Source of the DNA: a bacterium CG_4_9_14_3_um_filter_65_15
Lineage (GTDB): Bacteria; Krumholzibacteriota; Krumholzibacteriia; LZORAL124-64-63
Assembly (NCBI GenBank): GCA_002790835.1
Contig: PFVX01000089.1
Span: 1-47,600 of the forward strand
Direction of reading: 5' to 3'
DNA length: 47,600 bases
Part shown: one piece after another, positions 16,254 through 33,745 of the stretch
Position numbering within the stretch: the stretch's first letter is position 1
Layout: every line of letters starts with the position of its first letter
The notes under the pieces: model-generated
Databases searched by the model: none
Told to the model about the DNA's origin: nothing
Seen by the model: the letters and a program-made list of their open reading frames with translations, nothing else
Program-made: the position numbers and the translations under genes

Positions 16254-16343
16254 TGGCGGAGAGGCAGGGATTCGAACCCTGGGAACTCCAAAGAGCTCAA
16301 CGGTTTTCGAGACCGCCCCGTTCAACCGCTCCGGCACCTCTCC
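16254..16343 (-). tRNA. tRNA-Ser (anticodon CGA)
   Basis: Class II tRNA on the minus strand with acceptor GGAGAGG/CCTCTCC, anticodon loop CTCGAAA (CGA, reading UCG), a long variable arm and encoded CCA. It lies 34 nt after tRNA-Ser(GGA) in the same transcription unit. Confidence 0.95.
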
Positions 16344-16377
16344 CCATGATGTGTCCTCGCCGCGGCCCGGTCGCCGC

Positions 16378-16465
<88 letters not shown>

Positions 16466-19253: not shown

Positions 19254-21140
19254 TCAAGGACGAGACCGAGCGTCGATCCCGCCGGCCCGAGCATTCAATT
19301 CCAGATTGACCACGGCCGAACCCTGAAGAGCCCAGGGCACGTTCATGGCGGTCCGTGCCGGCAGGTGTGCCAGGGGCGGATGCGCTCCGGGAGCCGATTG
19401 TTCCAGCAGTCGGGAAAACCGACCCGGCAGGTTGGCGTATTCCTTGCCGCCGATCACGAGCCCGCCACCGGGTGCGACCAGGGCCAACACGAGCCGGTCG
19501 GCGGAGCGGGGGGTGCGCAGCAGCGAGACGACATCCGCTAGCGTCTCGGTGCGCGGGGCGCCACCCAGCCGCATGCTTTCCAGGGCGAACAGGTCGGCCT
19601 CGCTGGCGGCGACGAGGCGATACTTGCCCGGTTGCAGGTATTCCGGCAGCTTCACCGCGGCCCGCACCGTTCTCAACGGACCCCGGCTCGGTCGCAGCCT
19701 GACCTGGCAGACCAGGGAATCGGAGTCCGTCCAGATCTGCGCCGGTCCCGCCAGACCGGTGATTTCCGCGCCCGCTGCCGGGCGCTGAAGCGAAATGCGG
19801 GCCGTGACCCCGGTCAGGCTCACCCGCTGGTCGTCGTTGTCGAGCAACATGGCCACCGGGGCCATCCAGGCTGCGGCCAGGCCGCGCGCTCCTGCGGGCC
19901 CGGTGGCGATCCCTTCCAGCACCAGGGGATCGGATTCCAGATCCGCCTCCCCTCGCCAGCGCTGGGTGATGTGGTAGCGGATGGTCTGCTCGCTGGCGTC
20001 GTCCCCTTCGACCAGGAGCGAATTGTACAGGCACCAGAAAACCAGCGCCGGCGTCATGGCCGGGTCGTCGAGGACCTGGAAGGAATACTCCCGATCACCT
20101 CGCGGCCCAGCCACCTCCACGCGGACGGGGATCATGTCGGGCACGGGCCCCAGCTTGCCGCTCAGGCCGGCCCGCTGGTCGTGGTACACCGTGCCCACCA
20201 GTTCGCCGATCCCGGCCATCTTGAAGGACATCTGGCGGCTGGGAAGGACGGTGATCACCCGCGCGGTGGCCAGAGGCCAACGCACGGGCCCGCGCTGCAT
20301 GAAGGGATGGCCCATCATGAAAACGTCTTCGCCGTCGACCCAGGTGGTCGTGCCGACCACTCCCAGCAGGGCGTCCCCCATCACCAGGGGCACCGCACAG
20401 GCCGAACCGGAAGACAGGCCGGAGGCGGGCTGCCCGACGCCGGAGGTCGCCGCGGTCACCCGCGGTTCGCCGGGCCGGGAACTGAACCAGCCCTGGGGAT
20501 GACCATCGGCTCCGGCGGCCCGCCCCAGCTCCGGTACCAGATCCCGCAGCAATTCATCCGCGCTCGGCCAAGCGGGGACTTCGGCAGGGACCGGATCGCC
20601 GGCGGACCAACCGAGATTCCGGGCGAGATCCACCCCCCGGCCGACAGGAGAGGGTGACGATCCGGGCAGAGTTGATGGAGGCAGCATGGACAGGGTCACC
20701 GCTCCGGTGGGCAGGGACGCCATCTCCTCGACGGGTGTCACACCCGCGATCGGCCGCAGCGCCCCACCCCAGCCGAAGGCCAGGGCTCCGGCCAACCGGC
20801 CTTCCAGATAAACGGGACTGCCGCTCATGCCCTGGGCGATTCCCGATGTTTCCAGATCGTGGCCGGAAACCTCCACCAGGATGAGACTGCCCGCTGTGCG
20901 GGAACGATCCTGGATACCGATGACCAGCACCCCGAAGGTGTCGATCCCGCCGGCGGCGAATTCGGTGAGTCCGTACCCGGTCATCCCCGCCCGAACGGCT
21001 TCCAGGGGCATGATTTCCGGGGTCGATCCCGATGTGCTCCCGGTCGCGTCGGCCTGCGGAGCGACCAGCAGAACCAGTGCGCCCAACGCCATGACGACCC
21101 GCTCGCGGGCACGGCGCATCCCTGTGCCGAAGATGTCCAT
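19254..21140 (-). CDS. SpoIVB-like peptidase S55 domain protein, exported
   Basis: The 628-residue protein has a signal peptide (hydrophobic segment at about 15-30, ending ADA) and a domain resembling the SpoIVB serine peptidase family S55. Evidence is the sequence SGIAQGMSGSPVYLEGRLAG around residues 99-118, with the presumed catalytic Ser in GMSGSP, and a preceding SGHDL that could hold the His. A later GHPFMQRG and TTTWVDG region also fit homologues in non-sporulating bacteria. SpoIVB cleaves an intramembrane-protease regulator in Bacillus; here no sporulation genes are seen, so the target is unknown. The ATG at 21140 follows AAAGGAA. Confidence 0.8.
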   Translation of the reverse strand: MDIFGTGMRRARERVVMALGALVLLVAPQADATGSTSGSTPEIMPLEAVRAGMTGYGLTEFAAGGIDTFGVLVIGIQDRSRTAGSLILVEVSGHDLETSGIAQGMSGSPVYLEGRLAGALAFGWGGALRPIAGVTPVEEMASLPTGAVTLSMLPPSTLPGSSPSPVGRGVDLARNLGWSAGDPVPAEVPAWPSADELLRDLVPELGRAAGADGHPQGWFSSRPGEPRVTAATSGVGQPASGLSSGSACAVPLVMGDALLGVVGTTTWVDGEDVFMMGHPFMQRGPVRWPLATARVITVLPSRQMSFKMAGIGELVGTVYHDQRAGLSGKLGPVPDMIPVRVEVAGPRGDREYSFQVLDDPAMTPALVFWCLYNSLLVEGDDASEQTIRYHITQRWRGEADLESDPLVLEGIATGPAGARGLAAAWMAPVAMLLDNDDQRVSLTGVTARISLQRPAAGAEITGLAGPAQIWTDSDSLVCQVRLRPSRGPLRTVRAAVKLPEYLQPGKYRLVAASEADLFALESMRLGGAPRTETLADVVSLLRTPRSADRLVLALVAPGGGLVIGGKEYANLPGRFSRLLEQSAPGAHPPLAHLPARTAMNVPWALQGSAVVNLELNARAGGIDARSRP

Positions 21141-21306: not shown

Positions 21307-21383
21307 TGGTACGCCCAGGAGGATTCGAACCCCCAACCTCCTGGTCCGTAGCCAGACGCTCTATCCAGTTGAGCTATGGGCGC
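21307..21383 (-). tRNA. tRNA-Arg (anticodon ACG)
   Basis: Cloverleaf on the minus strand: acceptor GCGCCCA/TGGGCGT with a G-U at 1:72, anticodon stem TCTGG/CCAGG around CTACGGA (ACG, reading CGU/CGC/CGA after deamination to inosine by TadA), and CCA encoded. Confidence 0.95.
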
Positions 21384-21425
21384 ACCTTGTTCGCAACCAC
21401 CGCGGCGCCGTTGCCGCGGACAACC

Positions 21426-21513
21426 TGGCGGAGAGGGAGGGATTCGAACCCTCGTTGAGTTTCCCCAAACACGCTTAGCAGGCGTGCGCCTTCAGCCACT
21501 CGGCCACCTCTCC
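21426..21513 (-). tRNA. tRNA-Ser (anticodon GCT)
   Basis: Class II tRNA on the minus strand: acceptor GGAGAGG, anticodon stem CACGC/GCGTG around CTGCTAA (GCT, reading AGC/AGU), long variable arm and CCA encoded. Confidence 0.95.
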
Positions 21514-21519
21514 AAAACC

Positions 21520-21606
21520 TGGCGGAGGGCGGGGGACTCGAACCCCCAAGGGTTTTCACCCGGCGGTTTTCAAGACCGCTGCCTTACCAATTAGGACTAG
21601 CCCTCC
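21520..21606 (-). tRNA. tRNA-Ser (anticodon TGA)
   Basis: Class II tRNA on the minus strand: acceptor GGAGGGC/GCCCTCC, anticodon stem GCGGT/ACCGC around CTTGAAA (TGA, reading UCA), variable arm with GGGT-GAAA-ACCC hairpin, and CCA encoded. The anticodon is TGA, not the TCA of selenocysteine tRNA. It is only 6 nt from tRNA-Ser(GCT). Confidence 0.93.
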
Positions 21607-21761: not shown

Positions 21762-23027
21762 CTATCTGACCTTCCATTTGTCAAGCAAACCGCCCAGACC
21801 TTTCTCCAGGGCCTTACCCGGGTCCGCCCCGGTCCCCTGCAGGGTCCGATCCAGGTCCAGGACGAGTCGTGGTTGTGGGGTCGTACCGGTCAATTTCGCC
21901 GCCAGCGTCAACCGACCCTCCTTGTCGCGCAGCGAAGCGGCAAGCAGGAAAAGACTGCCGAGATCGGGGGTGAATCCGGCGGGCAACTTGACTTGAATGT
22001 CGACCGCGAGATCTCCCGCCAAGCCGATGCTTCCGCTGGCCCGCCAGTCCGTATCCGGGCCCGAAGCCTGCAGATCCACGGCGAAGCGGCCGTCCCTGAC
22101 GAGCAACGGGTGTTCCAGATGATCGTACCGGACTTCCATGAGATCCTGTCGTTTGCCCAGATAGGAGGCGATGTCGCCCAACCAATCGGTCGCGTGGACA
22201 ATCCCCTCCTCCCCGACGGCAATGCCCTCGAGTTCCAGGGAATCCGGAACCAGCTTCCCGTCGCGCACCGTACCCCATCCGGCGGCGCTTCCTGCCAGGT
22301 TCCCTTCCCAATGAGCAGCCAGATCGGGAGCGGAGTCGCCCAACAGCGCGGCTGCTGGCACGTCCTGTACGGTCAGCGCGAAACGGAAAGGAAAAATTGC
22401 AGCGCCTGCGCCGAGGGCAACGGCGGCCCGGCCGGAAACCGAGCCGCCGGACAGTTTGGCTCCCCAAGTTTCGGCGACCAGGGAATCGGCGTCGGCCCAG
22501 CCCTCGGCATCCAGGTTTTCCAAAGGGTAGGCGTCCCACTGGAGGCGGGAGGCGGCCAGTTCCCAGCGCACCGGGCCCGCAGCCGGAAGGATGGCGGCAG
22601 TCTCGTTCTCCAGGTCCAGGGCCAGGTCCTTCAGCCTCAGGTCGCCACCGGCAAGGGTGTAGGCATGGTCTCCGTTACGACCCCGGCAATCCACGCCGTC
22701 CAGGGTGGCGCTCGCCGCTTCGAGTCGTCCCCGCAGCAGGGGCAAGAGGGAGAAGCGCAGGGCTCCTCCCTGCCAGCCGGCCTCCTCCACGCCGCTGTCG
22801 GGCGGCAACCCCGTCATCCGGCCGGATCCCAGCTTCAGACCCGCGTGAGGCCACACCCTGACCTTGACCGAGTCCAGTTCCAGGTTCCAGCCCGTTGCGG
22901 CATTCACCCGGTCGGCGAGAAGGGCCGCCGTCCGGTCCGCCGGAATCACCAGAGGCGCCACCAGGGCCAGCAGCCCGATCGTCAGGACCAGGATCACGGG
23001 CACAAGCCAGATCAATCTTTTCTTCAC
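21762..23027 (-). CDS. AsmA-family envelope protein
   Basis: The 421-residue protein has one N-terminal membrane helix (residues 4-26) followed by a long periplasmic beta-rich region, as in AsmA/TamB-type proteins that help move phospholipids between the membranes. The start VIPADRTAALLADRVNAATGWNLELDSVKV and the later LASYLGK-like and LQASGPDTDWRASGSIGL-like strands fit AsmA-type repeats. It has a GTG start at 23027 behind GAGGTGCAAC, 22 nt after mnmA. It is shorter than E. coli AsmA (about 617 residues). The exact substrate cannot be read from sequence. Confidence 0.75.
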   Translation of the reverse strand: MKKRLIWLVPVILVLTIGLLALVAPLVIPADRTAALLADRVNAATGWNLELDSVKVRVWPHAGLKLGSGRMTGLPPDSGVEEAGWQGGALRFSLLPLLRGRLEAASATLDGVDCRGRNGDHAYTLAGGDLRLKDLALDLENETAAILPAAGPVRWELAASRLQWDAYPLENLDAEGWADADSLVAETWGAKLSGGSVSGRAAVALGAGAAIFPFRFALTVQDVPAAALLGDSAPDLAAHWEGNLAGSAAGWGTVRDGKLVPDSLELEGIAVGEEGIVHATDWLGDIASYLGKRQDLMEVRYDHLEHPLLVRDGRFAVDLQASGPDTDWRASGSIGLAGDLAVDIQVKLPAGFTPDLGSLFLLAASLRDKEGRLTLAAKLTGTTPQPRLVLDLDRTLQGTGADPGKALEKGLGGLLDKWKVR

Positions 23028-23049
23028 GTTGCACCTCGTCGAACGGACC

Positions 23050-24213
23050 TCAAGACGACGTCGTCAGGATGCGCGCCCCGGCCAGCACCACATCATCTCC
23101 ATACAAAACCATGCCCTGACCGGGGGCCGCCCCGCGGACAGGATCCTTCAACCGGACATCGAAACGGTCGCCCGATCGTACCCACTCCTGCACGGCGGCA
23201 CCGGCGTGGCGATGGCGGACCCGCAGGGTCACCTGCGATTCCACCGTTCCCCGCAGGGGCTGCCCGACCCGCCAACGATCCGGAAGTTCCGACACCGCCG
23301 CCACGAATCGATCCCCGCTCAAACGGGACTGTTCCAGTTCCTCCGCCGGCCCCACGACCAACCGGCTGTTCCGGGGCTCGAGGGCCAGAACGTAGAGGGG
23401 CCGGGGCGCGGCAACACCCAGTCCCCGGCGCTGGCCCACCGTGTAATGCACCAGGCCGCGGTGTCGTCCGAGGATTTCCCCCGTGCTGTCGACGATTTCA
23501 CCCGGCACCGTGCTGGGGTCGCCGACCGCCGCCAGCTCGGCAAAGAGTCCCGACCGATCGTCATCAGGCACGAAACAGATCTCCTGACTGTCCGGCTTGT
23601 CCGCCACCGTCAGGCCCAATTCCGCCGCAGCTTGGCGAACCTGCCCCTTGGTGAACCAGCCCAGAGGAAAGACGACCTGGGGCCAGAGTCGGCGCTCCAC
23701 CCGGTGCAGGAAGTAGGACTGATCCTTTTCCGGATCCAGCCCCCGGCACAGCAGGCCGCCGCCGGGGTGGTCGATCCGCGCGTAGTGGCCGGTGGCGGCG
23801 AACGCGCAACCCTGGCGCTCGGCCAAACGGACCAGTTCGGGAAACCGCAGTTCACTGTTGCAGTTCAGGCAGGGGTTGGGAGTGCGCCCGGCGGCATACT
23901 CGGCGACGAACGGTTCGATCACCCGGGCCCGGAACGGCTCCTCGATATTGGCGACCCAGTGGGAGGCCCCGAAGCGATGGGCCTGGTCGCGGGCGTCGGC
24001 GATGGCGTCCAATGAGCAACAGGCGCTGGCTGGTGTGTCGGCTTCGGCGAAGCAGATGTTCTTGAAGGTCACGCACTGGACGTCGCACCCGAGGGAGCGC
24101 AACAGCGCCAAGGTCACGGCGGAGTCCACTCCGCCGCTGATACCCAGCAGGATCCCCGTGCCGGGCGGCAACAATTCGCGCACCGGCGCGGGGATCTCCA
24201 GCGGAAAGGTCAT
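23050..24213 (-). CDS. mnmA: tRNA-specific 2-thiouridylase MnmA
   Basis: MnmA adds sulfur to U34 of tRNA-Gln, -Glu and -Lys. The 387-residue protein has the ATP-PPase loop [10 protein letters not shown] near residue 24, the conserved N-x-N substrate region TPNPCLNCN with one catalytic Cys, and TGHYARI. The second catalytic cysteine is in the [10 protein letters not shown] segment near residue 210. Its C-terminal beta-barrel is present. The ATG at 24213 overlaps the TPR lipoprotein stop (ATGA). Two of its substrates, tRNA-Gln(TTG) and tRNA-Glu(TTC), are encoded in this window. Confidence 0.96.
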
Positions 24214-24968
24214 TGCTTCAGGTTGTCGGGTACCGTCGCATTCATCAGGTCGCCTACGATCTTGATGTTCGCGCGCGAGCGATCGCCGATATCCCCGTCC
24301 GGGTCGTACTTCGAGGCCAGCTCCCACTCGTTCTCAGCCTCACGATAGATCTTGGCTTCGGCGAACATGATGGCCAGGTTGTAGTGTGCCAGGGCACTGT
24401 GGGGGTCGTGATCAAGCACACCCTCGAACTCCTTCAGGGCCTGGTCCGTCTTCTTCTGGCGCAGATAGAGCGACCCAAGATTGCAGCGGGCTTTCTCATT
24501 GAACGGATCGATTTCCAGGGCTTTCTGATAATTCATTTCGGCCGCGGCCAAACGTTGGTCGCGCACATCCCGTGAACTCATCTGTTCGCTGCGGTCATCC
24601 CACAGTGCGCCCAGGTTCACGTACCCCTCGACGAAAGTCGAGTCCAGGACCACCGATCGCACCATATAGGTTTCGGCGCTATCCAGCAGGGCATTGGCCC
24701 CCTCGCCGCCCCAGCCGGTTATCGCCGCACTGTCCGAGGCGGCGGAATAGAACCAGTTGCCCAGGATGAAGTTGGCATAGACCGCAGAGGGCTTCCCCTC
24801 GCCCATATAGGTCCGCAGGGTGTCCTGCAGTGCCTGCCCGTCAAGTTCACTGGTCCGGGCCATCAATTTTTCCAGTTCCGTCGCCGGAACCTTCTCCTTG
24901 CACCCCACCGTGGCGACCAGGGCCAGGATGGCCATCACCAGAAGAGCGCTCCATATCATTTTCCGCAT
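24210..24968 (-). CDS. TPR-repeat lipoprotein
   Basis: A 252-residue lipoprotein: signal peptide followed by the lipobox VATVGC with Cys23. Two to three tetratricopeptide repeats are visible, e.g. [26 protein letters not shown] (broken as two motifs) and [23 protein letters not shown], and a final helix pair. TPR lipoproteins act as periplasmic scaffolds; a partner is not identifiable. The ATG at 24968 follows AAGGAG. It lies 46 nt after the beta-barrel gene and overlaps mnmA by four bases. Confidence 0.85.
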
Positions 24969-25014
24969 GCCATCACTCCTTGTTCCCGTTGCGTGCGATG
25001 CCTGAGATCGGCAA

Positions 25015-26226
25015 TTACCACCAACGCTCCAGACCCGTTACCGACAGGGTCAGCCTGAGAATACGGCTTTCCATCCCGTTGTCGTCGAGGTTTCCGACCA
25101 GACTGTACGACAATGCCATGTCCAGCTGCCCCAGGTCGCCCCGGAAAGGGAAACCCGTTCCCGCGCTGAATGTCCTTTCCTCGACCGGACTGCCGCCGAC
25201 CTGGTAGGCCCAGGTCCGCGCACGGAATCCGAAGCGCACCGGGAGATTGTTCCAGCCCCCGTGACGTGCGTGCGCCCTGACCCTTTCCACACCGAAAGAC
25301 AAGGTGTGCTCGGCCTCCATGGCCTCGGCCCAGGAATCTTCCCCGGTGAAATCCCGGAAATCCCGGTACTGGTAATCCGCTCCCAGGCGCCAGCGGCCCG
25401 GCAGGGCAAAAGACAGGCCGGTACGATATTCGGCCGGCAGGGAATACCGGAAACTCGTCGTCGCGCGTTGGGCCACCCCACCCATCTCCATCTTCCTGTC
25501 CACATCCAGATCGTAGGCGGGAGTATACGACAAACCGAAGCGAACCATATGCGTGGGTTTCAGCAGGGCGGAAAACGTGGCGCTGGTCCCGGAATAAGTG
25601 TCCTCCTGAACCAGAAGGTTGGTCTGGTAAAAGGGCACTCCGGTCATGGACGAGGGATCCTGGAGCAGGTTGTAGAGGCTTTCCCGCAGGGTCCCGTTCT
25701 GCAGATTCAGCGCCGCAGCCAGACTGATGCCGTCCCGCGGCGAAAAGGCCACCCCGAGCGGCACCCGGAACACGCTGCCGTCCCGCAGGAACTGCACCTT
25801 CCCGGAGATGGTGTCCGACCAGACGTTCCAGGTCGAATCCACGCTGGTGTCGTACTGGGACGAGCGGTCGGCCACGAATCCCGCGGTCACCGCCAGTCGC
25901 CCCTTGAACACCGGCAGGGCCACGCGAAAATCAGGCGTGAAGACCCGTGAAGTGGTCCGTGTCCCGTGGGCATCCTCGGAGGTGGCTTGTTCCCCGTAGG
26001 CGGAGAAACTCAAGGCCACCTTTCGCACGGAATAAAGCGAGGCCAGGTTCTGAAAGCCCGGATGGGTCGAGTCGTCCACGGCCATGCCCCAACCACCGCG
26101 ACCGGTCATGCGGGCATCCTCGTTTTCCAGGCGTTGGCCGATGTTGGTCAACGCCAGGGGCGTCTGGGCCTCGGCTGTGGCGCCCAACAGCAAGCAAAGC
26201 GGAAGCAGCAGCGCGATTCGCTTCAT
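25015..26226 (-). CDS. FadL/PorV-like outer-membrane beta-barrel protein
   Basis: The 403-residue protein has a signal peptide (RIALLLPLCLLLGATAEAQ, cleaved near residue 20) and then alternating amphipathic strands up to the end. It finishes with the C-terminal aromatic pattern of outer-membrane barrels (GLERWW). The N-terminal RMTGRGGWGMAVDD-HPGFQNLASL segment resembles the start of FadL/PorV-type proteins. I preferred the ATG at 26226 (TGATG overlap with the lipoprotein stop, ribosome site AAGGGAG 6 nt away); a GTG at 26229 is in frame. Transported substrate unknown; the TonB operon context suggests an uptake or secretion-linked role. Confidence 0.8.
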   Translation of the reverse strand: MKRIALLLPLCLLLGATAEAQTPLALTNIGQRLENEDARMTGRGGWGMAVDDSTHPGFQNLASLYSVRKVALSFSAYGEQATSEDAHGTRTTSRVFTPDFRVALPVFKGRLAVTAGFVADRSSQYDTSVDSTWNVWSDTISGKVQFLRDGSVFRVPLGVAFSPRDGISLAAALNLQNGTLRESLYNLLQDPSSMTGVPFYQTNLLVQEDTYSGTSATFSALLKPTHMVRFGLSYTPAYDLDVDRKMEMGGVAQRATTSFRYSLPAEYRTGLSFALPGRWRLGADYQYRDFRDFTGEDSWAEAMEAEHTLSFGVERVRAHARHGGWNNLPVRFGFRARTWAYQVGGSPVEERTFSAGTGFPFRGDLGQLDMALSYSLVGNLDDNGMESRILRLTLSVTGLERWW

Positions 26227-27578
26227 CACTTGCTCCCTTCGCCGACCAGACCGGACAAGCTGTAGGTGATTTCCAGGTGTGGGCGATCCAGGGTATCGGG
26301 CGCCGCAAAGCCCATGAAATTGAACTGCGAATAGTAGAATTCCGGGTCGATGGTGCCCTGGTCGTAGAGGGGTGCGAAATCCTCTCCCGCGGTGATCACC
26401 AGGGCCCGCTCGCCTTCGTAAACCCCGTTGGCCAGACGCTGCACCGCCTGGGTCACGTTGAAGCGGATGTCACGGTCGGTGGCGGGTTCCAAGCTGGTCT
26501 GTCCGGTGATCACGTAGACCTGGTCACCCAGATCGGTAAGGCTGAGCGTGTCGGCCGGTTCGGTAAAGGCTTCCACCGGGAGCTCGCAGACGACCAGGGA
26601 GTGGCGGTTGCCGTAACTCGTGAGGGTGTCGTTGGTCACCGACAGCACGGCCCGGTTGATGAAGGCGTTGGCCGGAAGCCCGCTGAAATCGAAACGGAAA
26701 GCTGGGTAGGAGCGCAGACCGGTCCGTACGATGAAACCGTCGCCCGGCTCCGCAGGAGCCTCCCCGATCTCATCGAAGGTACTGGAGTCCGCGTAGGGAG
26801 GAATGAGCAGGACCGCCGTCGTGTCGGCGAGCACAACCCCCTCATTGAATTCCACCTGCAGATTCGGCGCCACGATGGTTCCCACGCCGAGATCCGCGAG
26901 TTCGTTGTACCGCAGGAATTCCCGGCCGCAGAACCCCACCAGGGCCGCGTCGCTCCCGACATCCGCGGAAAGGACGAAACCCCGCTGGCCACCTTCGGCC
27001 AGCCAGCCCAGGAAATCGGATTCGAACAGGGGAATGTTGGGTTCCTTGCCGTCGGCGAAATCCCGAGGATTCCGGATCAATTCAACCGGGCTCGCGGGGG
27101 GCACGGGCCCCGGTACCGCGGTGGTGTCGAACGGAGCATCCAGTTCCTTGAAGGTGTAGTAGAAGCTCGGGGGTTCCCCGCTGGGAAAGTTTCCCCCATT
27201 CCCGTAGAAATCCAACTTGACCAGGCTCAGCTTGACGGACTTGATGTTCTCGGCGGTGAAGATCTCTTCGGGGAATTCATCGGAATACAGGTCATCGAAG
27301 GAGAAGTTGACCAGGATGGACGACGAGGTCCCGCCCTGGAACCCCAGGTACATCACCTGCTGCTGACTCACCGGGATCTTTTCGTCCTGGATTTCCAGGG
27401 CGGCGAATCCGTCGGTCTGATCTGCCTTCAGAGGCTGCACCACCAGGTCGAAACTCAGATCCTGCTGCCCCGAACCCACGGCGCTCGGATCGTCGCTGGT
27501 ACATCCGGTGGCCAGCAGCAGAAGGCCCGCCAGGATCAAGCCCGGAGCCAACAGCCTAGTCACGAGGGTTTTTGCCAT
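26226..27578 (-). CDS. Exported lipoprotein with DNRLRE-like architecture
   Basis: A 450-residue lipoprotein. The lipobox ATGC (Cys26) follows a strongly hydrophobic signal, then SxDDPSAVGSG. The body is beta-rich, and its C-terminal third looks like DNRLRE-type domains: RFNVTQAVQRLANGVYEGERALVI, then a HLEITY ending. Such domains occur in surface proteins. The ATG at 27578 was chosen because it starts the signal peptide; upstream in-frame ATGs are hidden inside exbD. It follows exbD by 19 nt and precedes the beta-barrel with overlapping stop/start. The two may form an outer-membrane pair. Confidence 0.75.
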   Translation of the reverse strand: MAKTLVTRLLAPGLILAGLLLLATGCTSDDPSAVGSGQQDLSFDLVVQPLKADQTDGFAALEIQDEKIPVSQQQVMYLGFQGGTSSSILVNFSFDDLYSDEFPEEIFTAENIKSVKLSLVKLDFYGNGGNFPSGEPPSFYYTFKELDAPFDTTAVPGPVPPASPVELIRNPRDFADGKEPNIPLFESDFLGWLAEGGQRGFVLSADVGSDAALVGFCGREFLRYNELADLGVGTIVAPNLQVEFNEGVVLADTTAVLLIPPYADSSTFDEIGEAPAEPGDGFIVRTGLRSYPAFRFDFSGLPANAFINRAVLSVTNDTLTSYGNRHSLVVCELPVEAFTEPADTLSLTDLGDQVYVITGQTSLEPATDRDIRFNVTQAVQRLANGVYEGERALVITAGEDFAPLYDQGTIDPEFYYSQFNFMGFAAPDTLDRPHLEITYSLSGLVGEGSK

Positions 27579-27597
27579 CAATCGATCGCCTTTCGCG

Positions 27598-28005
27598 TCA
27601 TTGCCCGGCAGCCCGGACGGAAATATTGAGCCGTGTAAACCCGTTTTGCCTGAGGACATCGACCAGACCGATGGCGTCCCCGTATTCCACGTGCGCATCC
27701 CCGCGCAGGACGATGGCGTCCTGTCCCGTTTCCGCCTGCAGGCGCCGCAGCACCGCGGGCAATTCCTCTCGCGTCACCTGGGCGTCGTTGACGTAGATGT
27801 CCCCCTCGCGCGTCAGGTACAGCACCGTCGGCGTGACGGGCGTATCGGTGGCGGTGGCGGCCCGCGGCAGCACGATGTTGATCGCCGGCTGATTCTTGAA
27901 GGTCGAGGAGACCATGAAGAAGATCAGCAGCAGAAACATCACATCGATCAGGGACGTGACGTTGATGATCAGACCGCGGCCCTTGCGCTGGGGCTGGAAA
28001 TCCAT
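27598..28005 (-). CDS. exbD: ExbD/TolR-type biopolymer transport protein
   Basis: A 135-residue protein with one N-terminal membrane helix that carries the essential Asp (SLIDVMFLL, Asp21), followed by a periplasmic domain. This is the ExbD/TolR plan. ExbD and ExbB form the proton channel that powers TonB or TolA. The ATG at 28005 is 2 nt after the exbB stop. The neighbouring tonB supports ExbD rather than TolR. Confidence 0.93.
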   Translation of the reverse strand: MDFQPQRKGRGLIINVTSLIDVMFLLLIFFMVSSTFKNQPAINIVLPRAATATDTPVTPTVLYLTREGDIYVNDAQVTREELPAVLRRLQAETGQDAIVLRGDAHVEYGDAIGLVDVLRQNGFTRLNISVRAAGQ

Positions 28006-28007
28006 GC

Positions 28008-28649
28008 TCAGACAACTCCAGCGGACTTGGAATTCCCGACGGGGCCCTGCCTGATGCGCAGGGTATCAAGCACCTTGGCTGCGTAGAATTCCAGTTCGAA
28101 GATGATATTCTCCGCCCGACCGTTCAACCAGTTATATGCCACGAGGCTGGGGATACCCACGATCAAACCCGCAGCGGTCGTCACCATGGCCTCGCTGATC
28201 CCGCCCGAAAGGGTCTCCGGGTTGCCGAGCCCCGCAGCGGAAATGGTGGTGAACACGCGGATCATACCCAGCACCGTGCCCAGCAGGCCGAGCAAGGGGG
28301 CAACCGCGGCCACGGTCTCCAGGATCCCCAGTCGGCGCACCAGGCGCACGCCCTCCTGGCGACCGGCCTCCTGGATCACGTCGCGGATGATGGTCCAGTC
28401 GCTGTCGGCGTGGTCAAGACCCGTCATGACGATGTTGGCAAAGGGGCCGGGGCGACGCTTGCAGATCGCCCGGGCGACTTCCAGGTCCCGCCCCACGGCG
28501 AGGGTCTCCACGGCCTCGGCGATCTCCGGCACCACGATGTGCCGGGCGCGCAGGACGTAGATACGTTCCAGCATGATGGCGATCCCCGTGAACGAAGCCA
28601 GGGCGATGGGCACCATCATGTAGCGGCCGGCAAGAATCATTTCCCACAT
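28008..28649 (-). CDS. exbB: ExbB/TolQ/MotA-type proton channel protein
   Basis: A 213-residue MotA/TolQ/ExbB-family membrane protein with an N-terminal helix (about 7-28) and two C-terminal helices. It contains GILETVAAVAPLLGLLGTVLGM (in two pieces, residues about 105-127) and the SEAMVTTAAGLIVGIP motif, both family signatures. It forms the pentameric proton channel with ExbD dimers. The ATG at 28649 follows GGAGG. It lies 48 nt after tonB. Confidence 0.94.
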   Translation of the reverse strand: MWEMILAGRYMMVPIALASFTGIAIMLERIYVLRARHIVVPEIAEAVETLAVGRDLEVARAICKRRPGPFANIVMTGLDHADSDWTIIRDVIQEAGRQEGVRLVRRLGILETVAAVAPLLGLLGTVLGMIRVFTTISAAGLGNPETLSGGISEAMVTTAAGLIVGIPSLVAYNWLNGRAENIIFELEFYAAKVLDTLRIRQGPVGNSKSAGVV

Positions 28650-28697
28650 GGACGGATCAACCTCCGATTCGGCCCGCCCCAGCGGACCGTGCTGTGT

Positions 28698-29780
28698 TTA
28701 GCGCTGCAGCGCAGGATAGTAGAGTCCCAGGATGATCACAAGATTCTCCTCGGGGAAGGTCGGCGGCAGAGGCGCGTAAGGAGCGAAGGCGCGCAGCGCG
28801 GCCTCCGAAGCCTCGTGCAGCGACTCGTGCCCTTCGGTTTCCTGGACGTCCAGCGAGGCGACGGTACCGTCCTTGCGCACCACCAGCTTGATCACCGTGT
28901 GTCCCTGCAGGATGCCCAGGCGATAGGCATAGGGCGGAACCCAGTGCCGGTAGAGTTCGTTGGTGAACCGGTGCATCCACGGAGCGTAATCCCATTCATA
29001 GGTGTTGAGGCTGAAGTCCCCGTCGACGGCCACACCGGAAGTCACCTTCCCCTTGGCGGCCTGGTCGAAATCGAAGCCCCGGTCCCCGTCCGAGCCCTGC
29101 CGCCCCTGCTTGAGGATGGAGGGCTGCTCCTGTCGCCACCACCGATCCAGTTCCGAGGTCGGCGCCTGAGGATCCCCCGTTCGGGATTGCCGATCGGAAT
29201 CCCGGGCCTCCTGCTGTCCGGGACGCGGCTCGGCCAGGGCCCAGGTGCCCTCGCCCCGGGCATCGTCGCTCATCGTTTCCCGAGGCGCATTTTCGGCGGT
29301 TCCGGTGGTGGGGTCATCCTGCCTCACGCCCGACGACGGCGGAGGGGACGGGGGCACCGCATCGGTGGTCTGGATCCCGGGATCGCCGGCGAGATCTTCC
29401 TTCCGGATCTGCACCTGGTCGCTGATCCATTCCTTTTCGGCCGATGGCTGGTCCGCGTCACCGCCCAGGACGTTGTCCGCGGCCAAGGCGTGGTGCATGG
29501 CCAGGTATTCCGCCTGGTCCGGTGGCGTCTCGCTGGCCAGGCGGTCGGGGATCTCGGTATATTTTCGCGGCAGTTCCATGTTGTGCGCCGATTGGTCTTC
29601 GGCCGGCATCAGGAAAACTTCCACCGCATCATCAGGCGCCGCCAGGGCCGCAGGATCGATCTCGGGAAACAGGGGAATGCGCCAAGTCGCCGCAGCCAAC
29701 ACCAAGTGCAGCAGCAGAGACGCGGCGAAGGCACCCTGAATGATCCGTCGTTCCTGCACAGAAGTCGCTTTCCGGGGCAC
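28698..29780 (-). CDS. tonB: TonB family energy-transducing protein
   Basis: A 360-residue TonB-like protein: an N-terminal membrane helix (about 17-33, ASLLLHLVLAAATW with the SxxxH motif of TonB), a long acidic/polar periplasmic spacer, and a C-terminal TonB domain (about 255-360) with WVPPYAYRLGILQGHTVIKLVV-type start, GTV and LPPTFP. The spacer is rich in Asp, Gln and Ser rather than the Pro-Lys/Glu-Pro repeats of classic TonB. It has a GTG start at 29780. It is the first gene of the operon, divergent from murB. Confidence 0.88.
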   Translation of the reverse strand: MPRKATSVQERRIIQGAFAASLLLHLVLAAATWRIPLFPEIDPAALAAPDDAVEVFLMPAEDQSAHNMELPRKYTEIPDRLASETPPDQAEYLAMHHALAADNVLGGDADQPSAEKEWISDQVQIRKEDLAGDPGIQTTDAVPPSPPPSSGVRQDDPTTGTAENAPRETMSDDARGEGTWALAEPRPGQQEARDSDRQSRTGDPQAPTSELDRWWRQEQPSILKQGRQGSDGDRGFDFDQAAKGKVTSGVAVDGDFSLNTYEWDYAPWMHRFTNELYRHWVPPYAYRLGILQGHTVIKLVVRKDGTVASLDVQETEGHESLHEASEAALRAFAPYAPLPPTFPEENLVIILGLYYPALQR

Positions 29781-29861
29781 GGCGCCAACGACGTCCGGGC
29801 ACCTTTACCCCGGCCACAAGTTACCGCACGGCAGCCCCGTTGCCAAACCCCTCGACCCGGG

Positions 29862-29890
29862 TTGACGCCGGCGATCGAGTGTTCCATTGT
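29862..29890 (+). promoter_or_regulatory. Predicted promoter of murB
   Basis: TTGACG and CATTGT are spaced 17 nt apart, about 31 nt upstream of the murB ATG. The -10 element is weak, but a similar xATTGT appears in the histone promoter. The opposite strand of this intergenic region must hold the tonB promoter, which I could not define. Confidence 0.5.
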
Positions 29891-29920
29891 GACGGAAACC
29901 CGAAAGGCGAACCTGAGCTC

Positions 29921-30856
29921 ATGACCGCCGATACGCCCTTCATCCCGGACTTGCCTCCCGATTTGGCTCCGCTGACACGTCGGCAAGTGCCTCTGCGGGA
30001 CCTGACGACTCTCCGGGTTGGCGGCCCAGCCGGTCTGGTGTGCCGCCTGACAACACCGGAAGCCGCGCTACGGTTCCACCGCTGGGTGGAAAATTCCGGC
30101 CTACCTTTCTACATCCTCGGCGCCGGCAGCAACGTCCTCGCCCCGGACGATGGTTTCGCGGGCGTGATCCTCAAGGTCGAGACTTCCGATTTCTCCGTGA
30201 CCGGAAATCTCGTCACTGCCGGGGCCGGTCTGGACTTCGACTCGCTCATCGCGCAAAGCCTGAACGCCGGCCTGGTGGGATTGGAATTCGCCTCCGGCAT
30301 TCCCGGCACCCTCGGCGGAGCCGTCATGGGCAACGCCGGATGTTACGGCCACGAAATCGGCGAATTCGTCCGGACGGCACGCCTGTTGACCCCCGAAGGC
30401 CACATCGAGGAAGTCGGCGCCGATGAATTCGGGTTCGCCTACCGCCTCACCCAGCTGCGCGAGACGGGCGCGGTGCTGCTCGACGTCACCCTGGCCATGT
30501 GCGCGGGCGACGGGGACCAGGCCATGGCGGTGCGGCACGAACGCATCGCCGACCGGCGCGCCAAGCATCCGGTCGACCAGGCGTGCGCCGGAAGCTGGTT
30601 CCGCAACCTACCCGCCGCCTCCCCCGACGACCGTCGCCAGGCGGCGGGCCGTCTGCTGGAGGCCGCCGGCGCCAAGGCGATGCACGAGGGCGACGCCCGG
30701 GTATTCGAGCGACACGCCAACATCATCGTCAACGCGGGCCGGGCCACCAGCGATCAGATTTCCCGTCTCGCCGCGCGCATGCAGGCGGCCGTCCGGGACC
30801 GGTTCAAGGTGGAATTGGTGGAGGAAGTCCGCCGGTTACCCCAAAACCCGGCCTGA
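29921..30856 (+). CDS. murB: UDP-N-acetylenolpyruvoylglucosamine reductase
   Basis: MurB reduces UDP-GlcNAc-enolpyruvate to UDP-MurNAc, an early peptidoglycan step, using FAD and NADPH. The 311-residue product has the FAD-binding stretch ILGAGSNVLAPDDGFAG, GLEFASGIPGTLGGAVMGNAGCYG and the catalytic region CAGSWFRNLP, where the Ser of the active site is present. FERHANIIVNAG follows. The spacing and the GSWFRN motif fit the shorter type II enzymes. The ATG at 29921 starts the conserved part; longer in-frame starts precede the promoter. Its 3' end is convergent with the FG-GAP gene, 6 nt apart. Confidence 0.95.
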   Translation: MTADTPFIPDLPPDLAPLTRRQVPLRDLTTLRVGGPAGLVCRLTTPEAALRFHRWVENSGLPFYILGAGSNVLAPDDGFAGVILKVETSDFSVTGNLVTAGAGLDFDSLIAQSLNAGLVGLEFASGIPGTLGGAVMGNAGCYGHEIGEFVRTARLLTPEGHIEEVGADEFGFAYRLTQLRETGAVLLDVTLAMCAGDGDQAMAVRHERIADRRAKHPVDQACAGSWFRNLPAASPDDRRQAAGRLLEAAGAKAMHEGDARVFERHANIIVNAGRATSDQISRLAARMQAAVRDRFKVELVEEVRRLPQNPA

Positions 30857-30862
30857 CGGGGT

Positions 30863-33658
30863 TCAGCGGGCCAGCACGACCTTGGCGGAAAGGCGGGCGC
30901 CCTCGGTCGCGCCGTGGATGACGTAGACCCCTGACGGCGCGGGTCCCTGTGCCGTCTCTCCCCGCCAGGTCAGGTCCAACCTTCCGACGGGAGTCACAGC
31001 GCGGTAGAGCTCATGCACCAGGCGGCCGCGCACGTCGTACACGCCCACCGCAACCTGCCCGGGCCGCTTGACGTCGAGGCTGAACTGCAGGACCGGATTG
31101 AAGGGATTGGGTCGCGGGAGACCCGACCAGGCCAGCGCCGGAGCACCGGCCACCGGGGCGGTCTTGCCACAGGGATCATCCCAAACCTTTTCCAGCGTTT
31201 CGGCGTCCCCCCCTGTGCCCAGGGTCAGACGCAGCCGGAAGGGCGCGGTCGGGGTCCCGGCGACACTTGTTGCCGGGAAACCGGGATCCGGATCCCACAG
31301 CCAACGGCCGCGATCGTAGGCCATGTCTCCGTCCACCGACCAGCCCGGACCCGCCAATCCCGACCAGACGACGTTTCCGTCCCGGACCAGGGCCCCGGCC
31401 AAGGACCATGAGCCCGGTCGGTCCGGGGAAACAATCAAACGTGGGCCGGCCGTCGAACAGGAAAACTCCAGCGCCTGGGGAGTGACGGCCACCAGATTCC
31501 GAAAACCGTTCAGCAAGGTCATGCCCAAGCGGAACTCCCCGTCGAGGGCCAGGATATCCCCCCGATTGTCGTCGTTGAACAAGCCGGTGGCGAGGGTCGC
31601 GATGTCAGGCCCGAAGGCGTAGGAGAAGGTGGTCGCCCCGGAAAACCCCGCCTGGGGAATCACCACCGCCGTGGCGCCGAGTTCACGCTGGTTCGCCAGG
31701 ATGTCCTGCCGGCCATCATCCGAAACATCGGCCACCTCCAGGGATGAGACCGCACCGTCGAGGGAATACCCCGACAAGCGGGCCACCAGATGGCCCGCAC
31801 CGTCGTTCTCGAAAAAGGACAGCGTCCGCTCACCGTTGTTGGCCACCACCAGGTCTTCATCCAGGTCTCCGTCGAAGTCGCCGACGGTCAGCAGGGCCGG
31901 TCTGCTCCCTGCGGGGATGGAAGTCGTGTTGCCGAAATTCCTGCCGTTGGTGTTCTCCATCCACCAGCTCTGGCTGAGTCCGTCGACAAAGACGAGTTCC
32001 CTGTCATCATCTCCGTCGAGGTCGAGGCTGGTCGCCGCCGTGGGGACGGCCATGGTCGGAAAGACGAGCGGATCCGCAAAGCGCCCCTCACCCAGGCCGA
32101 AAACCAGGTTCACCTCGCTGAGGCCGTTCTTCAGGTAGACCAGATCCCCGTGTCCGTCCCCGTCCATGTCCGCAGCCAGGAGTTGACGGATACCGCCCCC
32201 GCTGGCAATGGTGTCCAGGGCATTGAGCACCCCATTGCGGGAAAGGTCGAAGGTGATGATCCGGCTCCCCACCGGATCGCTCACGGCCACGGGTTCTCCA
32301 CCGGAAACCAACTCCCCCAGGCCGACCATCTGGCCGGGAGGGAAGCCCAGATCCATCGACGTGGGCAGGACGGCAAAAACTCCGTCGATCAAAGCCGGGA
32401 AGAGATCAATCCGGGAGCTCAGGCTGGACACGACCACGGCGTCGGGACGGCCGCCACCATCGGTGTCGATGAGGGATAGGCCGAGGGGATCGCCCTGGAG
32501 TACCGAAACCGGATAGGTCCAGAAAAGGCGACTCGGATCCCCGTAGAGGACCGTGATTCCGGGCGCCTCTCCCACGCAGGTCACATCGAAGCGCCCGTCC
32601 CCGCTCAGGTCATGCAGCAGGAAGTCCACGGGACGGCAGCCGGAGTAGTAGGCGCCGGCCGGCGACCAGACACCGGAGGACAGGACCTGCATCTCCACGA
32701 CTCCTCGCGCCATGTTTCCCGTGAGCAGGGCGGTCCGGCCGTCCAGCAAATGGTCCAGCTTCAGGGCGTCAACCGGGAGATCGAGGACGATCTGATCCCG
32801 GTCCAGGTATGACCCGGAAGTGAAGGTGAACACGTGGGCGGCGGGCTGCTCGGCAGCACCGACCACCAGTTCCACGGGAGCAGCTCCGTCGATATCGAAA
32901 ACCGCCAGCGGCCCCGGTGGGGTGCCCAGGTCCAGCGTTGTCTCCAGATGAAAATGACCGGAACCGTCCTGGACCAGAACCCCCACGTCCCGGGACAGGA
33001 ATCCGCTCTGGGAAAGGTAGATTTCCTCCAACCCATCACCGTCGAGATCCCCCACTCCGACGGAACCTGGACCGTCCCCAACGGGCACCTCCTGGCGAAT
33101 GGACCATTGCCCGGAGCCATGGCCCAGGACCACAACGCGATCCAACCCCGGCAGGGAGACCACCAGACCCGGGTCGGCCGTCACACCCAGGGCCACCTCC
33201 CGCACGCGACCGGGGTCCTCGGGGAGATCGAGGGACTCCTCCACCATGAAGTAGGGCAAGGTCGGTTGGACGGTGAGAAAGTCCAACCGGTCCGGATTGG
33301 CCATGGCCGCCACCAGTCCCCCCGCTCCCAAACGGAGCGGGTCCGGGATCAGGTCCATGGCGAGTCCCCCGGCCTCGAACCGGTTCAACAAGCCGATGGT
33401 GCCGGTCTGGACCCGGAACTGGGCCAGGTCCAGGAAACCATCCGCCGTCCCGATCACCAGGTAGCGGTCGGCATCGGCAAAACCGGTCACCCTGCTGCAG
33501 CTGATTGTCGTGGTATCCAGATCCACGATGGCCGGCCCGGGGAAATCGACTCCCTGAGCCCGCACGTGCGTCCCGGCCAACAGGCACCCCGACACGGCAA
33601 GGATGACACCCAGCCGCCCGGGCGCGGGAACGGGACCAAAACGGGATCCGCAGGGCAT
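30863..33658 (-). CDS. Secreted FG-GAP/VCBS repeat protein with FlgD-like C-terminal tail
   Basis: A 931-residue exported protein of unknown function. A signal peptide ends near AGTHVRAQ. Repeated calcium-binding-like motifs occur along the protein, such as DLDGDGLEEIYLS, DMDGDGHGDLVYL, DLDGDDDRELVFVDG and DFDGDLDEDLVV, typical of FG-GAP beta-propellers. The C-terminus (about 850-931) is a FlgD-Ig-like module beginning RPNPFNP with VGVYDVRGRLVHEL, and ends in KVVLAR. Such tails occur on secreted FCB-group proteins. The start is uncertain: the ATG at 33658 starts the signal peptide, but a TTG at 33670 has the better ribosome site (GAAAGG). Confidence 0.82.
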   Translation of the reverse strand: MPCGSRFGPVPAPGRLGVILAVSGCLLAGTHVRAQGVDFPGPAIVDLDTTTISCSRVTGFADADRYLVIGTADGFLDLAQFRVQTGTIGLLNRFEAGGLAMDLIPDPLRLGAGGLVAAMANPDRLDFLTVQPTLPYFMVEESLDLPEDPGRVREVALGVTADPGLVVSLPGLDRVVVLGHGSGQWSIRQEVPVGDGPGSVGVGDLDGDGLEEIYLSQSGFLSRDVGVLVQDGSGHFHLETTLDLGTPPGPLAVFDIDGAAPVELVVGAAEQPAAHVFTFTSGSYLDRDQIVLDLPVDALKLDHLLDGRTALLTGNMARGVVEMQVLSSGVWSPAGAYYSGCRPVDFLLHDLSGDGRFDVTCVGEAPGITVLYGDPSRLFWTYPVSVLQGDPLGLSLIDTDGGGRPDAVVVSSLSSRIDLFPALIDGVFAVLPTSMDLGFPPGQMVGLGELVSGGEPVAVSDPVGSRIITFDLSRNGVLNALDTIASGGGIRQLLAADMDGDGHGDLVYLKNGLSEVNLVFGLGEGRFADPLVFPTMAVPTAATSLDLDGDDDRELVFVDGLSQSWWMENTNGRNFGNTTSIPAGSRPALLTVGDFDGDLDEDLVVANNGERTLSFFENDGAGHLVARLSGYSLDGAVSSLEVADVSDDGRQDILANQRELGATAVVIPQAGFSGATTFSYAFGPDIATLATGLFNDDNRGDILALDGEFRLGMTLLNGFRNLVAVTPQALEFSCSTAGPRLIVSPDRPGSWSLAGALVRDGNVVWSGLAGPGWSVDGDMAYDRGRWLWDPDPGFPATSVAGTPTAPFRLRLTLGTGGDAETLEKVWDDPCGKTAPVAGAPALAWSGLPRPNPFNPVLQFSLDVKRPGQVAVGVYDVRGRLVHELYRAVTPVGRLDLTWRGETAQGPAPSGVYVIHGATEGARLSAKVVLAR

Positions 33659-33716
33659 ACCGGATTGCAAGTGGTTGATCCTTTCAGGGATGACGCGCTG
33701 GCCGGGGTCCAACGGA

Positions 33717-33745
33717 AATATACGGATTTGGTCCTGGGCGGCCAA
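33717..33745 (-). promoter_or_regulatory. Predicted promoter of the FG-GAP protein gene
   Basis: The minus strand has TTGGCC and TATATT with 17-nt spacing. Transcription would start near 33709, about 50 nt before the ATG, which rules out the longer in-frame start at 33745. Confidence 0.65.

Follow-up and report, generated by a model that had tools for sequence, protein, structure and literature searches.

The β-barrel assembly machinery (BAM) of the outer membrane is commonly regarded as working with no source of energy. Here we describe an operon on a 47,600-nucleotide stretch of contig PFVX01000089.1 (the window; contig C53 of genome G000, 3.39 Mb in 94 contigs), from a bacterium that belongs, by its named relatives, to Candidatus Krumholzibacteriia, in which homologues of two BAM subunits, BamG and BamH, are encoded together with a TonB-ExbB-ExbD motor. 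The closest described system is the BAM of the Bacteroidota Flavobacterium johnsoniae, Bacteroides thetaiotaomicron and Porphyromonas gingivalis (as set out in the accessible parts of PMC12611786 and PMC12578637), with its BamG-type barrel, BamH-type lipoprotein, BamA, BamD and SprA-like client, all of which have counterparts here. In contrast to that system, bamH and bamG are adjacent in our genome and lie in one operon with tonB-exbB-exbD and the gene of a tetratricopeptide repeat (TPR) lipoprotein, whereas F. johnsoniae bamG (Fjoh_1412) and bamH (Fjoh_0823) carry distant locus numbers. The second system for comparison is the TonB-ExbB-ExbD energiser, which the operon's motor resembles in its S-x3-H transmembrane motif, the Asp of ExbD, the Thr segments of ExbB and the fold of the TonB C-terminal domain, but here the operon holds no receptor, BAM-subunit homologues are linked to the motor and the TonB spacer is acidic and polar.

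We consider it very probable that the core of this operon is the BamG-BamH canopy module of a Bacteroidota-type BAM, a judgement that covers the identity of the module and not the target of the TonB. According to the accessible text of PMC12611786, BamG and BamH occur in six of seven other phyla of the Fibrobacteres-Chlorobi-Bacteroidetes (FCB) group, so that BamGH in this phylum is an extension rather than a surprise. The new part is the TonB motor linked to BamG-BamH, no such linkage having been found in the literature searched. Neither PMC12611786 nor PMC12578637 uses the word ExbB in its main text, and the accessible text of the literature on a TonB-BAM link, including these two papers, PMC13067283 and PMC12204202, yielded no TonB/ExbBD operon with bamG or bamH. 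A conserved natural operon joining a proton-driven motor to BamG-BamH homologues makes it possible to test whether there are energised BAM machines. The operon also carries the BamG-BamH design into Krumholzibacteriota and puts the TPR lipoprotein forward as a candidate further subunit.

The operon occupies positions 21762-29780 on the minus strand of the window and consists of eight closely spaced or overlapping genes in the order tonB, exbB, exbD, lipoprotein, barrel, TPR lipoprotein, mnmA and AsmA-like. This order had been read from the letters in the initial annotation, and all eight genes were borne out, as were the overlaps, the acidic polar spacer of TonB and the lack of a plug-type TonB receptor among the eight (nine are encoded elsewhere in the genome). 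The lipoprotein and barrel genes overlap by 4 bases, as do the TPR and mnmA genes, and the remaining intergenic gaps measure 2-48 bases. The starts of the lipoprotein (ATG at 27578, 450 aa) and of mnmA (ATG at 24213) were judged from the open reading frames. The last two genes are mnmA (23050..24213), a tRNA 2-thiouridine synthase above the NCBIfam equivalog cut-off whose housekeeping function is unrelated to the envelope genes of the operon, and a gene for an AsmA-like envelope protein (21762..23027), with matches to NCBIfam GspN_Lepto (E 1e-6) and AsmA (E 1e-4) that are both weak and below cut-off and with no Pfam match.

The barrel of the FadL family (25015..26229) matched the NCBIfam BamG model NF053685 with 108 bits (E 6e-31) over residues 24-403, almost its full length. 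FadL/TodX transporters and PorV belong to the same barrel superfamily, but their matches were far weaker (Pfam FadL/Toluene_X, E 0.015 and 14.3 bits, not reaching the cut-off of 29.7; NCBIfam PorV_fam, E 6e-4). Compared singly with the PDB, the barrel sequence had as its top two matches the BAM barrels 9hiv_F and 9n2d_B, with weak E values of 0.04 and 0.09. A profile built on 30 relatives in eight families (alignment A1) matched 9hiv_F (E 1.2e-38), 9n2d_B, named 'Bam G' (7e-33), and 9hjm_F (4e-26) over nearly their full length, the next best match being the transporter TbuX at E 2.7e-8; in bits the BAM barrel chains scored 95-136 and the best transporter 36, a lead of 59-100 bits over FadL-type transporters. 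The entries 9hiv and 9hjm are the BAM structures of B. thetaiotaomicron and P. gingivalis, respectively, whose chains the PDB lists merely as 'Outer membrane protein' (PMC12578637, accessible text). The N-terminal tail TPLALTNIG aligned with SPYSFYGIG of 9n2d_B in a weak single-sequence match, and the C-terminal ERWW resembles the NERWF and NDKW of solved BAM barrels. Judged from these alignments, the barrel is homologous to BamG over its full length and stands nearer to it than to PorV or to transporters of the FadL type. A second BamG-like match in the genome (contig C25, 58 bits) is FadL-like and has no recognised bamH beside it. The C-terminal tail of F. johnsoniae BamG contacts BamD. Across alignment A1, BamG ends in WW or WY in most rows of family f1, that of the window, and in those of f5, and carries an additional, often basic tail in rows of f2, f3, f4, f6 and f7.

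The lipoprotein encoded upstream of the barrel (26226..27578) had no Pfam match and a weak DNRLRE match (E 8.5e-4) below cut-off; among 30 of its relatives, Pfam gave one weak CBM96 match (E 0.006) and scattered weak matches in three others. Its assignment comes from an AlphaFold (AF2) model of the mature protein, computed with 17 relatives from a scan of genome contigs (20 loci, of which 12 were titled Candidatus Krumholzibacteriia or Krumholzibacteriota and one Gemmatimonadales), with a mean predicted local distance difference test (pLDDT) of 83.2 and a predicted template-modelling (TM) score of 0.82. The top three Foldseek matches in the PDB were the BamH chains of F. johnsoniae, P. gingivalis and B. 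thetaiotaomicron, namely 9n2d_C (1e-9), 9hjm_G (5e-9) and 9his_G (2e-6), and the fourth was 8wab, a carbohydrate-binding module. VIA-align gave Z scores of 16.6, 16.2 and 13.3 against the BamH chains over 351-359 of 425 residues; 8wab ranked between them (14.5 over 164 residues), followed at 11.8 by the TGF-beta-type prodomains as the next family. On this predicted fold the lipoprotein is classed as a BamH homologue. The accessible text of PMC12611786 names 8wab, classed as DNRLRE, as the closest structural homologue of BamH, which explains why the initial annotation had called this protein DNRLRE-like.

A barrel closer to BamG and a lipoprotein that best matches BamH by fold together point to outer-membrane protein assembly. 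On the model of the Bacteroidota work, BamG, as a FadL-type barrel, would dock on BamA, and BamH, a lipoprotein that BamG holds at the cell surface, would form a roof over the place of outer-membrane protein folding. The genome holds all four genes, BamA (471 bits) and BamD (99 bits) both scoring above cut-off on contig C17 and BamG and BamH being present as homologues. A second BamA-like gene lies on contig C62 (294.7 bits, just below the cut-off of 297.15). The TPR lipoprotein (24210..24968; TPR families in Pfam), which nearly always follows bamG, is a candidate extra BAM-associated subunit and may be a periplasmic accessory; a reading of it as BamD was rejected, the BamD above cut-off being encoded on C17. 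SprA is a large FCB-type protein tied to BamG and BamH in the accessible text of PMC12611786; an SprA-like protein is encoded by an open frame of 2222 aa on contig C68.

All conservation counts refer to 80 genomes of the phylum, 46 of them of good quality, in eight families (f1 to f8). SprA matches were obtained in 80/80 genomes (72 above cut-off), so that the type IX secretion system (T9SS) is likely phylum-wide. A strong BamG (E < 1e-50) is present in 73/80 genomes and in all 46 good ones, and those without it (G013, G030, G053, G063, G071, G074 and G079) are all less than 90% complete. BamH was matched in 75/80 genomes at E 1e-3, 73 of these at E < 1e-20 with some fragments, and in 45 of the 46 good genomes, one weakly (G070); the other, G067, had none, and bamG stands at a contig end in both. 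Conservation of the gene order, which the initial annotation had proposed to check in relatives, was found at the 73 BamG loci examined (72 plus the window). At all 59 loci with more than 1600 bases upstream, bamH precedes bamG, and the TPR gene is the next recognised gene after bamG at 68 of the 69 loci where the downstream view is 900 bases or more, the exception being G047. Where at least 2300 bases were available downstream, tpr-mnmA follows in 40/60 loci and mnmA stands further on in 10. Since the gene order recurs in relatives, it is not due to chance, and it persists where BamG shares 24-31% identity with the window copy. The AsmA-like gene was not seen in the tonB-free loci examined, whereas bamH and tpr were. 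Several loci of f3 and f7 (L051-L054, L056, L060, L145 and L146) have further TPR matches after the TPR lipoprotein.

Upstream of bamGH, tonB was seen in 37/55 loci and exbB/exbD in 35/55, the 55 being those in which tonB is visible or the upstream view spans 3600 bases or more (eighteen were excluded for insufficient view), a rule that admits some shorter loci solely when tonB is seen and therefore slightly favours positives. By family, linkage was found in f1 (29/29), f5 (4/4), f2 (2/2, tonB only) and f6 (2/3), and in none of the loci of f3 (0/12), f4 (0/3) and f7 (0/2). Seven more f1 genomes (G009, G017, G027, G029, G030, G033 and G034) have tonB and bamH matches 1.1-1.35 kb apart on one contig; of the remaining two, G013 lacks a strong match to the genes and in G032 a break falls between exbB and tonB, so that the linkage is contradicted by no f1 genome. 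In the two f2 genomes no exbB or exbD was seen between tonB and bamH, and the two frames are only 16 bases apart.

The first gene of the operon encodes TonB (28698..29780; Pfam TonB_C, 30.7 bits against a cut-off of 24.6), with a short cytosolic N-terminus, one transmembrane helix with the S-x3-H motif (SLLLH), a spacer (residues 41-262) with 44 D+E, 20 K+R and 21 P, and the TonB C-terminal domain. Profile comparison with the PDB gave TonB C-terminal domains as the best matches (5lw8, E 4e-5); the AF2 model of this domain was mediocre overall (pLDDT 62, core blocks 66-86), and we used just its core order and Foldseek ranking, in both of which it agreed best with TonB domains. ExbB, the exbB/tolQ-type proton channel subunit (28008..28649; Pfam MotA_ExbB, 110 bits), has GLLGTV and TTAAGL segments that align with TolQ and ExbB chains in the PDB, and ExbD, the exbD/tolR-type subunit (27598..28005; Pfam ExbD, 100 bits), has the motif INVTSLIDV, whose Asp aligns with the ExbD Asp of chains 7ajq and 6tyi. 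These segments, the Asp and the S-x3-H motif are presumably the proton-path and coupling residues. To judge from sequence, the window motor, with its TonB C-terminal domain and one transmembrane helix, has its motor residues intact, and a complete proton-driven motor would be produced from the bamH-bamG operon. Among the linked TonB frames, 33/37 reach the transmembrane helix, 27 of them with S-x3-H (26 by script, one by eye), five with A-x3-H and one with Asn replacing His. The script found the motif patterns in 33/36 ExbD and 34/36 ExbB frames; the three ExbD misses look like wrong-frame picks, and the two ExbB misses read TTAFGL by eye.

In NCBIfam, ExbB and ExbD score slightly better as TolQ/TolR than as ExbB/ExbD, a likeness to the Tol-Pal system. 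Such a system was rejected, there being no TolB in the operon and a TolB-like gene elsewhere (no search for Pal was made); that gene, which scores 267 bits against a cut-off of 343, is found on contig C17 beside another exbB/exbD/TonB_C set, and the best TolB match is below the curated cut-off in 78/80 genomes, this one included. TonB_C was matched eight more times in the genome, once next to the TolB-like gene and once in a short protein that lacks a transmembrane helix. Short proteins consisting largely of this TonB C-terminal domain (144 and 163 aa; L074 6978-7412 and L166 1328-1819) occur in this genome and in G001.

Away from bamGH, a profile of the C-terminal part of the linked TonB (A6) found strong copies in f3, f4 and f6. 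At 19 unlinked tonB neighbourhoods, two of which reach a contig end, exbB is directly next in 18 and exbD follows in 16; the tonB-exbB-exbD cassette is thus intact in 16/17 unlinked loci with at least 1 kb of room, G049 having neither gene within 4 kb. At least some of these cassettes, among the matches listed, have varying neighbours, and no plug domain was found in ten large open reading frames (ORFs) tested from eight unlinked tonB loci. The initial annotation had named, as findings that would undo its reading, tonB genes paired only with ordinary receptors and envelope genes scattered in relatives; the envelope pair does not scatter (59/59) and the ten ORFs show no plug, but tonB itself parts from the pair at the remaining 18 of the 55 loci. 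On a 67-row BamG tree (without six short rows, including the linked f6 locus L069), the linked label requires 2 changes against 15.1 in shuffles, with f1, f2 and f5 forming one linked block and f6 linked separately, so that independent linkage events were few. In G053 (f6), which has no strong bamG, an apparently shortened bamH (L152 7371-8411, model positions 12-354 of 437) follows a tonB-exbB-exbD cassette and is itself followed by rhodanese and amidase genes; it is perhaps a relic of the tonB-bamGH linkage. Peptidase_C25 and PAD-type proteins with Por-like tails were seen near the tonB cassettes of L149 and L160.

Several observations weigh against identifying the operon core with BamG-BamH or against tying the motor to it. 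The 108 bits of the barrel do not reach the curated NF053685 cut-off of 250, and the protein is therefore named a BamG homologue and not a member of the equivalog model. The lipoprotein superposes only loosely on BamH (TM-score 0.35-0.44, root-mean-square deviation 9.6-13.0 in Foldseek and 6.8-7.3 in VIA-align, identity 10-14%), the carbohydrate-binding-type domain in common with 8wab is enough by itself to give that entry a Z score of 14.5, and no BamH chain was found in the PDB by the single lipoprotein sequence or by a 30-row profile. The export-signal rule in the accessible text of PMC12578637 calls for two acids within six residues after the lipid Cys; TSDDPS, which comes next after the lipid Cys (codon 27503-27501), has two, but of 17 named relatives only 8 do, the other 9 having one acid. 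As for the motor, tonB is unlinked in 18/55 loci, and mnmA is as conserved as tonB in f1, f2 and f5, so that shared transcription alone does not show shared function. Throughout f7 and f8, in several f3 genomes and in G057 (f6), matches to the linked TonB are weak (E 4e-13 or worse) or lacking. Since G044 (f7, 97% complete) and other such lineages have bamH-bamG without a strong copy of it, BamGH seems able to manage without this TonB.

What the linked TonB acts on is a separate matter from the identity of the module. We give an even chance to its being a general energiser of ordinary TonB-dependent receptors, held in the operon with bamH-bamG for co-expression, the receptors being among the main clients of a BAM of this kind. 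At least one plug receptor is present in 80/80 genomes and nine in that of the window, the TonB C-terminal domain has the ordinary fold, the presence of mnmA shows that unrelated functions can share the operon, and certain F. johnsoniae SusCD proteins depend heavily on BamH (PMC12611786, accessible text). With eight other TonB_C matches in the genome, however, it is not obvious that a general energiser would have to be the linked copy, none of the ten ORFs tested near unlinked copies holds a plug domain, and this account leaves unexplained the tonB beside bamH in f2 without exbBD.

A direct action on this BAM, or on a step of surface-lipoprotein handling, is possible but is the lesser expectation. 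The TonB C-terminal domain would then make contact with an intermediate bound to BamA, with BamG or with the TPR lipoprotein, and proton-motive work might be fed into client release, canopy rearrangement or surface-lipoprotein flipping. Direct coupling accords with the finding of tonB ahead of bamH in four families out of the seven that could be viewed, with the seven additional f1 genomes, with the 16-base spacing in f2 where no exbBD was seen, with the intact motor residues, with the persistence of the order in distant BamG relatives and with unlinked cassettes near which ten large ORFs, from eight loci, show no plug domain. Against it are f7, f8 and parts of f3, which have BamGH but lack a strong copy of this TonB, the equally persistent mnmA, plug receptors in all 80 genomes and a linkage that needs just two changes on the BamG tree. 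Neither was a TonB box, for which the initial annotation had suggested a search in the barrel, recognised by eye in the aligned BamG N-tails of the 30 relatives; the mature N-tail, which directly follows the apparent signal peptide, is already the BamG-type tail. The fuller picture of an energised BAM in Krumholzibacteriota, in which a dedicated TonB-ExbB-ExbD, in contact with the TPR lipoprotein in the periplasm, powers BamADGH to release outer-membrane proteins, move the canopy or flip surface lipoproteins, is put forward as a tentative and rather doubtful proposal. The initial annotation had supposed an energised system serving a non-receptor barrel and a large lipoprotein; the genetic tie of TonB/ExbBD to that pair and the order conserved in many relatives stood up, but the energising of the pair is conjectural. 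That the TonB serves some other target is unlikely.

As to the BamG-BamH module itself, it is improbable that the two proteins form a BamG2/BamH2-like paralogous pair with no part in the working BAM; a second pair of this kind exists in B. thetaiotaomicron, undetected in proteomics (PMC12578637, accessible text), but our genome has one BamH match and one strong BamG match, and strong BamG is found throughout the good genomes. Least probable is the TonB-driven transfer of lipid or hydrophobic substrates through a FadL-type barrel, aided by the AsmA-like protein, which the initial annotation had favoured on the strength of the distant FadL likeness and of the AsmA-like gene that ends the operon, and which gives way before a barrel far closer to BamG than to every FadL-type transporter, a partner lipoprotein that best matches BamH by fold, and tonB-free loci in which bamH and tpr are seen and the AsmA-like gene is not.

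Around the operon, murB (29840-30856) begins just upstream of tonB in the opposite orientation. On the minus strand, 30863-33745 encodes an FG-GAP repeat protein with a weak match to a FlgD-like C-terminal Ig domain, resembling T9SS cargo tails. Two tRNA groups, also on the minus strand, lie at 21307-21606 (tRNA-Arg/Ser/Ser) and 16254-16465 (tRNA-Ser/Ser), so that a span of about 5.4 kb holds four serine tRNAs. A SpoIVB/S55-peptidase-like protein (Peptidase_S55, 28 bits, above cut-off) is encoded at 19254-21140 on the same strand, downstream of a tRNA group, and would not be expected outside spore formers.

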